NCBI RefSeq assembly: GCF_000271665.2
Contig: NZ_CP010978.1
Span: forward strand, 900,501-964,500
Length of the DNA: 64,000 nucleotides
Source of the DNA: Pelosinus fermentans JBW45
GTDB lineage: Bacteria; Bacillota; Negativicutes; DSM-13327
Direction of reading: 5' to 3'
Under the pieces are notes generated by a model, which was not told where the DNA came from, did not search any database, and worked only from the letters and a program-made list of their open reading frames with translations. Shown in pieces: positions 38,650-43,795 of the stretch (the stretch's first letter is position 1; each line of letters starts with the position of its first letter). Position numbers and translations under genes: made by a program.

Positions 38650-38678
38650 TTTACATTTTGTAGTGAGAAGTGTATGAT
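38650..38678 (+). promoter_or_regulatory. Promoter of the biotin cluster
   Basis: TTTACA at 38650-38655, 17-base spacer, TATGAT at 38673-38678. The predicted start near 38685 falls inside the first BirA-like half-site, as expected for repression. Confidence 0.72.
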
Positions 38679-38682
38679 AATA

Positions 38683-38714
38683 TTGTTAACCTTTAATTAG
38701 TAATTGGTTTACCG
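38683..38714 (+). promoter_or_regulatory. BirA-like biotin operator 1
   Basis: TTGTTAACC at 38683-38691 is a perfect match to the left half of the Firmicute biotin operator (TTGTTAACC-N14/16-GGTTAACAA). After 14 bases comes GGTTTACCG, matching 6 of 9 of the right half. Confidence 0.78.
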
Positions 38715-38802: not shown

Positions 38803-39297
38803 GTGTACTATAACACTCGAAGATTGACGGAGACTGCGCTGCTGACTACTTTGATTACCATTTCTGGTGCGATTAAATTGCCTGGCTTCATTCCAGGTAC
38901 CGAGTTTCAATTATCAGCTCCTTTGGCGGTGGCTATCTGTGGTGTTTTTGGCTTTACCAAGTACATAACGGCAGGTATATTATCGAGTCTCATTGGACTT
39001 ATATTGGGTACCCAGAATTTGCTGAATGTGGGTATTGCCATGATTTTTCGCTTAGTCGTAGGCATTTGCGTGACTGCTTTAGGGACATCGTGGCCTGTGT
39101 TAGTGATGGCGGGACCCTTAGGATCCAGCGTGGCTCGCCTGGCTCTTGGAGGTATATTGGGTAAGGGAGCAATACCTCTTTTGCTGGCAGCAGTACCAGG
39201 TATGATTTATACAGCACTGACTGCTTGGCCTCTTACTTTATTATTAAAGAAGGTGAAGCTGCAAACGGAGAAGGTGGTACAAAGTGTACAGCGTTAG
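38803..39297 (+). CDS. Unknown membrane protein of the biotin cluster (S-component-like)
   Basis: 164 residues, about five membrane helices, first gene after the biotin operators. The opening RRLTETALLTTLITISGAIK and the loop with FQLSAPLAVAICGVFG resemble in style the substrate-binding (S) subunits of energy-coupling-factor transporters, which include biotin carrier BioY, but I do not see the usual BioY wording. Start GTG 38803 follows AAAGGAGG. It overlaps bioW by 14 bases, so it is tied to pimelate activation. It may import pimelate or biotin; that is inference. Confidence 0.6.
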   Translation: MYYNTRRLTETALLTTLITISGAIKLPGFIPGTEFQLSAPLAVAICGVFGFTKYITAGILSSLIGLILGTQNLLNVGIAMIFRLVVGICVTALGTSWPVLVMAGPLGSSVARLALGGILGKGAIPLLLAAVPGMIYTALTAWPLTLLLKKVKLQTEKVVQSVQR

Positions 39298-40030
39298 AAT
39301 GCGGGCGGCCCAGGGAGGACGGCATGAAGAGGGCGGGCGTCATATTTCTGGTGCAGAGCGGATCGTTCCTTATGATAAAGTGGAGCAGACAGCTGCTGGG
39401 ATGCTGGAAAGAGCTTTCACTCACAGTCGGGGACAGGCTGATTTTATTAATATTACGATAGAAACAGTACAGCCCAGTAGGATACAACAAGTACCTTTGC
39501 TGCCTGTTTATCCTTCTTCCTCCCTTACGGTAGAGGAAGGGCATAAGGCAGTAGAACATGCATTAGTCGCAGCAGGGGTAACTTCTAGTGGGGCAAAGCA
39601 AGGGATTCTAAGCTTGTTGTCTTTAGCTGACAGTATGCGCGGAGCCATGTTGTTATGTGCTGTTACGGGTCAGCGTCTTGATCATACAAAAGACAGAGGC
39701 ATTCGGGTATCTCGTATGGATATTGAAAACGAAGATGCATTGATTGATAGATTGGTAAAGCAGGGGATTCACAATTTGCATGTACAAGAAGCGCTGGTGC
39801 TGGCAAGTAAAGTAGCTGCTGGTCCTGGTGTAGTAGCTGAACTTTGTTGGTCTGATGATCCTGAATATACAACGGGGTATGTTGCTTCTGCTAAGGGATA
39901 CATTCGCATTCCCCATTGCAAACCCTTAGGAAATCCTGTAGGCGGGCGAATCTTTTTTGTAAATCCTACTGCGGATAGATCCCTTTTGGAGAATTATTTA
40001 CAGCACCAGCCTGTGCTTGTAACACTATAA
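39284..40030 (+). CDS. bioW: 6-carboxyhexanoate-CoA ligase (pimeloyl-CoA synthetase) BioW
   Basis: 248 residues from GTG 39284, with GGAGAAGGTGG upstream. The text follows B. subtilis BioW closely: YSVRMRAAQGGRHEEGG at the start, HISGAERIVPYDK, RGIRVSRMD and VVAELCWSDDPEYTTGYVAS. BioW joins pimelate to CoA using ATP, giving the first intermediate of biotin synthesis for BioF. Using BioW rather than BioC-BioH means that the pimelate is either taken up or made separately. It overlaps the membrane protein gene and leads into bioF 15 bases later. Confidence 0.95.
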   Translation: MYSVRMRAAQGGRHEEGGRHISGAERIVPYDKVEQTAAGMLERAFTHSRGQADFINITIETVQPSRIQQVPLLPVYPSSSLTVEEGHKAVEHALVAAGVTSSGAKQGILSLLSLADSMRGAMLLCAVTGQRLDHTKDRGIRVSRMDIENEDALIDRLVKQGIHNLHVQEALVLASKVAAGPGVVAELCWSDDPEYTTGYVASAKGYIRIPHCKPLGNPVGGRIFFVNPTADRSLLENYLQHQPVLVTL

Positions 40031-40045
40031 AGGACAAGGTACAAT

Positions 40046-41212
40046 ATGGAATTTTGTAAAACATATCTTTTAAAGGTTCAGGAACAGAATTTATACCGAA
40101 ATCCAGTGAGTTATCGATTCTTAGATGCGGTTCACGTAGAGCTGGAAGGTAAAAGCTATTTATCATTATCGACGAATAATTATTTAGGATTAACCCATTC
40201 TTCTGCTGTACAGCAGGCAGCTATAGATGCTATTTCTCAGTATGGCACAGGATCAGGAGGAGCCAGGCTGACAACGGGGAGCCATCCTCTGTATCAAAAG
40301 TTGGAGCAAGGGCTGGCAGCCTTTAAGAAAACGGAAGCTGCTGTAGTTTTTAATACAGGTTATATGGCCAATGTAGGAGTGATTAGTGCTTTATCTGGTA
40401 AGGGAGATGTAATCTTTAGCGATGCACTCAATCATGCCAGCATTATTGATGGCTGCTGCTTGTCCAAAGCTCATAGGGTGGTATATCGTCATGGGGATAT
40501 GGATGATTTGGCAGAGAAACTAAAAGATACCCCTTGCTCAGGCCGGCGTCTCATTGTCACTGACGGGGTATTCAGCATGGATGGTGATATTGCACCTCTG
40601 GATGATATTGTTGCCTTAGGAGAAACCTATGAGGCTATGATTATGGTGGATGATGCCCATGCAGTAGGGGTCTTGGGGCGTGGGGGCTGCGGTACGGTGG
40701 ATCATTTTGGTCTACAGGGAAGGGTCGATATCCAAATGGGAACACTGAGCAAGTCCCTGGCATCAGAAGGTGGTTATGTAGCTGGCAGCCAAGCGCTAAT
40801 TGCATACTTGATGAATAAAGCTCGCAGTTTTATTTTCTCTACCGCTTTATCTCCAGCGACAGTAGGGGCCGCTCATGGGGCATTGATGGAGTTGCAAAAT
40901 CACCCGGAGCTGGTTGAGACTGTATTACAGAATGCTCAATATGTACGAGAGGCACTAACTTTTGCTGGCATGCCTGTGGAAGGAAATATGACTCCTATAC
41001 TGCCGATTATGGTAGGAGAAGCAGCCCTTGCGGTAAAGATGGTTGAGTTATTAAAAGAAGAAGGCTTACTCGTATCAGCCATTCGCCCGCCGACAGTACC
41101 CCCTGGCAGCAGTCGATTACGCCTGACAATATCCGCTGCCCATGACAGGAAAGAATTAGCCCAAGCGGTGGAAAGCATCATTGCAGTGAGTAGAAGGGTA
41201 AAGCTAATATAA
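40046..41212 (+). CDS. bioF: 8-amino-7-oxononanoate synthase BioF
   Basis: 388 residues, PLP-dependent alpha-oxoamine synthase. Seen are NNYLGLTHS, GTGSGGARLTTGSHPLYQKLE, the PLP Asp region VDDAHAVGVLGRGGCG, and the Schiff-base Lys in GTLSKSLASEGGY. It condenses pimeloyl-CoA with alanine, the step after BioW. The same fold includes 2-amino-3-ketobutyrate CoA ligase, but the position directly after bioW decides for BioF. AAAGGAC precedes ATG 40046. Confidence 0.94.
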   Translation: MEFCKTYLLKVQEQNLYRNPVSYRFLDAVHVELEGKSYLSLSTNNYLGLTHSSAVQQAAIDAISQYGTGSGGARLTTGSHPLYQKLEQGLAAFKKTEAAVVFNTGYMANVGVISALSGKGDVIFSDALNHASIIDGCCLSKAHRVVYRHGDMDDLAEKLKDTPCSGRRLIVTDGVFSMDGDIAPLDDIVALGETYEAMIMVDDAHAVGVLGRGGCGTVDHFGLQGRVDIQMGTLSKSLASEGGYVAGSQALIAYLMNKARSFIFSTALSPATVGAAHGALMELQNHPELVETVLQNAQYVREALTFAGMPVEGNMTPILPIMVGEAALAVKMVELLKEEGLLVSAIRPPTVPPGSSRLRLTISAAHDRKELAQAVESIIAVSRRVKLI

Positions 41213-41416: not shown

Positions 41417-43548
<2,132 letters not shown>

Positions 43549-43679: not shown

Positions 43680-43795
43680 TCTTCTTGAACCTATATAATT
43701 TCGAAAGAGTGCATAAATTAGATGCGCTCTTTTGCTTTTTTAGTGGATTTGCCATATAATTGAGAGATAATATAGGTAATAAGGAGGGCGAGAGT

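Follow-up and report, generated by a model that had tools for sequence, protein, structure and literature searches.

What is a small membrane protein doing directly ahead of bioW, at the head of a biotin operon of Pelosinus fermentans JBW45? BioW acts on free pimelate (PMC7645780), yet a 2024 review states that its pimelate pathway 'remains unknown in B. subtilis or any other strains' (PMC11089781). The operon lies in the window analysed here, i.e., the whole 64,000-nucleotide stretch, found at 0.90–0.96 Mb of the complete 5.38-Mb genome. A preliminary description of the window treated the protein as unrecognised and as a possible importer of pimelate or biotin. We use X as shorthand for the gene at 38803–39297 (+) and its product, an orthologue of bioX, and also for its homologues elsewhere.

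The X gene and its operon

The open reading frame of X was inspected together with its neighbours, and the 164-residue frame of the preliminary description, including its overlap with bioW, was borne out. Translation would start at a GTG codon with a GGAGG ribosome-binding site in front, the overlap with bioW measures 14 nt, and bioW, bioF, bioD and bioA follow in that order (Table 1). Homologues with 47–97% identity to X occur in Pelosinus, Propionispira, Massilibacillus, one Bacillus and many further genomes. Such conservation across many genera indicates that the reading frame is real and excludes a chance ORF. No relatives of X were found in the viral contigs searched.

Table 1. Features of the X operon and its upstream region (positions are those of the window).
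Feature	Position	Strand	Basis
Possible sigma-70 promoter TTTACA-N17-TATGAT, just 5' of operator 1	38650–38678	+	Consensus match alone, 10/12
BirA-type operator 1, TGTTAACC-N14-GGTTTACC	38684–38713	+	14/16 positions of TGTTAACC-N14-GGTTAACA; 0.01 expected by chance in window
BirA-type operator 2, GGTTAACC-N13-AGTTAACA, 17 nt 5' of X start codon	38757–38785	+	14/16 positions; 0.01 expected in window
X, orthologue of bioX; six-helix protein of 164 aa that resembles ECF S components, predicted pimelate-binding subunit	38803–39297	+	ORF, models and fold searches, BioW co-occurrence, BioX orthology
bioW, 6-carboxyhexanoate(pimelate)--CoA ligase	39284–40030	+	PF03744 E = 3.5e-85; NF002360 and TIGR01204 (NCBIfam equivalogs) over cut-off
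bioF, KAPA synthase (aminotransferase I/II fold)	40046–41212	+	PF00155 E = 1.1e-61 and operon context
bioD, dethiobiotin synthase	41426–42166	+	PF13500 E = 1.6e-48 and operon context
bioA, DAPA aminotransferase	42163–43548	+	PF00202 E = 6e-108 and operon context
Terminator-like hairpin with T tract, 3' of bioA, 13 pairs	43702–43734	+	Consensus scan

X had also been described as the first gene under biotin control, and this is supported by the two BirA-type palindromes upstream of it. Operators of the form TTGTTAAC(C)-N13-15-GGTTAACAA, together with a BirA encoded in the genome that carries a DNA-binding HTH domain, place X in the BirA regulon. Sigma-70-type matches in the region are about as numerous as in shuffled sequence. 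An exact genome-wide search for BirA boxes with gaps of 13–17 returned 4 matches vs 8 for the reversed control and was not discriminating alone, so a comparison across genomes with control genes was used instead. When the highest-scoring box within 220 nt upstream was taken for each gene, with genes from the same loci as controls, boxes of at least 13/16 positions were seen to precede 32 of 60 X genes vs 6 of 353 control genes. Stand-alone X genes, which lie away from bio genes, retain BirA-like boxes at nine loci; all nine X genes scored outside any bio cluster have boxes of at least 12/16. Several of these stand-alone genes have lipoprotein-like and permease-like genes in their vicinity.

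Predicted fold of X

Two AlphaFold2 models of X, built with 11 and then 17 homologues, reached pLDDT values of 82.8 and 85.2 and pTM values of 0.77 and 0.80. Both predict six membrane helices, one more than the five of the preliminary description, along with a short hairpin in the first loop. When the models were compared with the PDB using Foldseek, the first matches were all energy-coupling factor (ECF) S components (RibU, BioY, PanT, ThiT and FolT), with E values of only about 1e-3 to 1e-2; the closest match by TM-score was BioY (0.69). VIA-align superposed X on BioY with Z scores of 14.1–14.2 (2.7–2.8 Å over 155–156 residues), and its top rows were nearly all S components and CbiM/NikM, with pMMO subunits at a Z score of about 11 and the rest at about 7 or less. 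The likeness to pMMO, to which Foldseek gives no support, was read as a common helical arrangement. The six-helix S-component fold appears in both predicted models (pLDDT 83–85), and on this modelling the assignment of X to the fold of an ECF S component is well supported.

The profile search against S-component families that had been proposed as a check of the preliminary description was also run. At E ≤ 10, Pfam yields no family for the X protein, which also reaches no curated family cut-off in Pfam or NCBIfam. It has a weak match over its N-terminal half to TIGR04522 (EcfS_MSC_0063, a putative ECF S component; E = 0.033), which it scores with 14.1 bits vs a cut-off of 60. A few relatives of X touch the ECF riboflavin S-component model (E = 0.0038), and a search of PDB sequences with a profile of the X family alignment gave a chance match only. 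The expectation of a protein that resembles ECF S components and is not clearly BioY was nonetheless borne out by the fold matches and by the lack of a BioY profile match.

Genes for the remainder of an ECF transporter, EcfA1, EcfA2 and EcfT, lie adjacent to one another at C1:4.297 Mb in the Pelosinus genome. TIGR04521 is over its cut-off and PF02361 matches with E = 1.6e-53, while TIGR04520 is near its cut-off in an ORF that is cut by the end of the examined locus.

Relationship to BioX and to QueT

A translated search of plasmids with X gave three staphylococcal matches. In the two plasmid genes examined, the homologue sits directly 3' of bioW, in the arrangements bioD-B-F-W-X and bioD-A-B-F-W-X. 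These near-complete biotin operons, which include both bioW and bioX, are carried on the staphylococcal plasmids NZ_CP013715.1 and NZ_CP077961.1 of food or farm strains. Staphylococcal BioX (bioDABFWX) resembles X in lying next to bioW, is 38% identical to it and keeps its residues K25, F35, Q36, Y54, S62, R83, R112, P132, G133 and T137, but it is encoded by the last gene of the operon and X by the first. S. equorum BioX can also be aligned with the X homologue of Bacillus ectoiniformans (41% over 147 aa, E = 5e-33). The BioX copies compared were those of S. equorum and a Mammaliicoccus plasmid; S. aureus BioX was likened via gene order only.

With bioW as its neighbour and homology over the full length, X is, as judged by sequence comparison, an orthologue of staphylococcal BioX. 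What had appeared to be an unrecognised protein thus belongs to a gene type that already has a name. The bioXWF cluster named in Bacillus sphaericus (PMC11089781) has the same X-W-F order as the window and is likened to it by gene order alone; orthology of its bioX to X is a lead.

Staphylococcal BioX is annotated as hypothetical or as a 'QueT transporter family protein'. QueT (PF06177), an ECF S component for a queuosine precursor, is the sequence family nearest to BioX, which matches it over its full length with E = 5.5e-6 and 27.2 bits vs a gathering score of 33.7. This match would provide a sequence bridge from X to the S components. X itself was rejected as a QueT, as the window protein has no PF06177 match, its orthologue falls below the gathering score, an Rfam search of the window found no element and hence no riboswitch, and the context of the gene is biotin synthesis.

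Co-occurrence with BioW

The distribution of X was examined in 300 genomes of the Negativicutes, the class to which Pelosinus belongs; X is present in 114 of them and BioW in 130. All 114 genomes with X have BioW, and X is absent from all 170 genomes without it (hypergeometric value 8e-66, a statistic that ignores phylogeny). The same held for a phylum sample of 299 genomes, where convincing X homologues occur in 11, all within the 21 genomes that have BioW. BioW does not need X, since 16 of the 130 Negativicutes genomes with BioW lack it. As controls, BioB scored above its cut-off in 265 genomes of this set, and BioY is present in 288 irrespective of BioW. At least 135 genomes therefore have BioB without BioW, and none of these has X. 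The dependence of X is thus specific to BioW, and its distribution tracks BioW, and neither biotin synthesis nor auxotrophy for biotin.

The two genes are also close neighbours. X adjoins bioW in all of the first 22 homologous loci, with other bio genes rearranged around the pair. Among the Negativicutes, X was placed upstream of bioW on the same strand and within 150 nt in 79 cases, inverted or downstream in 18, and on another contig in 11. X genes in the latter two groups still occur only with BioW, so the dependence outlives operon linkage. On a maximum-likelihood tree of BioW, for which X-less genomes were over-sampled, the presence of X changed by gain or loss at least 13 times, with a best estimate of 17, indicating that the one-way dependence has been replicated by evolution and is not one inherited accident. 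The one-way link of X to BioW is therefore well supported, though co-occurrence of this kind demonstrates linkage and says nothing on the direction of transport or the identity of the substrate.

Two further observations concern the arrangement of these genes. In one additional BioW genome of the phylum sample, the interval separating bioF from bioW contains an apparent broken remnant of X (L084:4180-4338), as if X had recently been lost and BioW retained. In several Negativicutes (eight loci), BioW and BioF are fused in a single frame of 635–745 aa.

Biotin genes elsewhere in the genome

A bioH-bioC operon lies behind a perfect BirA palindrome at C1:3412627-3414239 (L091:3627-5239), with BioC over its cut-off. 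A second bio operon, bioB-bioW-bioF-bioD-bioA (C1:4579333-4586538), has genes for BioY and an oxidoreductase upstream and contains no X. The BioW encoded there shares 54% identity with that of the window and brings the total in the genome to two. The bioH-bioC route yields pimeloyl-ACP without free pimelate; de novo synthesis in this organism can therefore proceed without BioW, which would, however, be needed if pimelate were imported. Given this de novo route behind a BirA box, BioW together with X looks like a means of salvage. Downstream of the second bio operon (L074:3-5300) lies a putative small biosynthetic cluster, whose genes encode an alpha/beta hydrolase, a protein resembling an acyl-carrier domain, and what may be a methyltransferase and an acyl-activating enzyme.

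Proposed role in pimelate import

X was found only alongside BioW in the several hundred genomes sampled, and is therefore most likely an importer of pimelate. We consider it probable that X/BioX serves as the S component in an ECF importer that takes up pimelate under biotin control, for which we infer transport, pimelate as the ligand, use of the shared ECF module and an external supply. At the cell surface, X would capture free pimelate (heptanedioate), and the shared EcfA1-EcfA2-EcfT module would power its delivery into the cytoplasm, where BioW, encoded by the overlapping downstream gene, would turn it into pimeloyl-CoA for BioF. BirA-biotinoyl-AMP would repress the X operon while biotin is sufficient, such that pimelate scavenging would start at biotin shortage. 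In Pelosinus, X and BioW would provide salvage as a second entry, next to de novo synthesis by BioC-BioH.

Across 63 homologues of X, Q36, Y54, S62, R83, R112 and T137 are invariant and position 25 is always K or R. Three of these positions, K/R25, R83 and R112, carry a cationic residue that is invariant or nearly so; they would suit a dicarboxylate and constitute a candidate site for it. X may not be the only way in: added pimelate supported the growth of C. autoethanogenum with bioYDA but without X (PMC6505512), which indicates that other entry routes exist, and BioY or diffusion may suffice for entry at high pimelate concentration.

Of the two substrates named in the preliminary description, pimelate is favoured by the distribution of X and biotin is disfavoured by it. 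If X, as an S component, bound biotin or a late vitamer (dethiobiotin, KAPA or DAPA), it would in effect be a second BioY, in keeping with BirA-type boxes of the kind that also control biotin transport genes and with BioY being its closest structural match. We regard this as unlikely, given that X is confined to BioW genomes (114/114) whereas BioY is widespread irrespective of BioW, and that the Pelosinus genome already has three BioY. A clear match to BioY, the outcome that had been named as refuting, was looked for, and X has no PF02632 match at E ≤ 10. Alignment of X with the genome's own BioYs (three sequences) using hhalign gave a weak probability of 25% over 35 columns. The D-x-x-K motif of BioY is involved in biotin binding. 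The P-G-D-x-x-K found at the last helix of the genome's own BioY1 and of 4dve reads P-G-M-x-x-T in X, and position 134 in the X family is M in 57 of 63 homologues and never D. The genome's BioY2 retains D-x-x-K and its BioY3 the D alone.

X could also carry pimelate mainly by recapturing endogenous free pimelate that has leaked from the cell, in the way that S. aureus BioY recaptures biotin (PMC12642757). B. subtilis forms free pimelate as an intermediate (PMC7645780), but the BioC-BioH route of Pelosinus does without it. The distribution data do not separate endogenous from environmental pimelate; overall, we find recapture quite unlikely as the main role.

Proteins with the S-component fold but no transport function exist (PMC11109136), and the fold is common to receptors too. 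Together with the overlap and near-constant adjacency of the two genes, this raises the prospect of X as a non-transport membrane partner that recruits or activates BioW, or frees pimelate from a membrane-derived precursor. Such a role appears very unlikely, as the dependence on BioW persists in the genomes where X is apart from, inverted to or downstream of bioW, and as X has the small size of a bare S component and lacks any extra catalytic or signalling domain. Finally, the suggestion that S. aureus BioX is an acyl carrier protein for pimeloyl, given as a possibility in a 2025 paper that cites earlier work (PMC12642757), is barely credible for a protein with six predicted membrane helices and no DSL motif in either the window X or its staphylococcal homologues, since acyl carrier proteins are small soluble four-helix proteins with a DSL phosphopantetheine site.

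Implications for biotin prototrophy

ECF S components are a known kind of machine, whereas pimelate as a substrate and a function for bioX would be new as far as the literature consulted goes. Nothing relevant on a pimelate transporter was found in that literature, with subscription journals mostly outside its scope, so earlier proposals may exist. On balance, BioX may well define the first system dedicated to pimelate uptake, with a vitamin precursor as the cargo of an ECF transporter. Pimelate uptake would also be of practical use in biotin fermentation.

The reading of X put forward here may explain bioX, so far a gene name without an established function. An S component confined to BioW genomes, as sampled here, offers a direct and testable answer to where BioW obtains its pimelate. 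If X does import pimelate, many 'biotin prototrophs' with BioW would depend partly on pimelate from their surroundings, and pimelate would be a shared nutrient in anaerobic communities. Genome-based calls of BioW organisms as 'biotin prototroph', of which 246 gut genomes of variant P2 are an example (PMC6593275), would then become 'prototroph or pimelate-dependent'.
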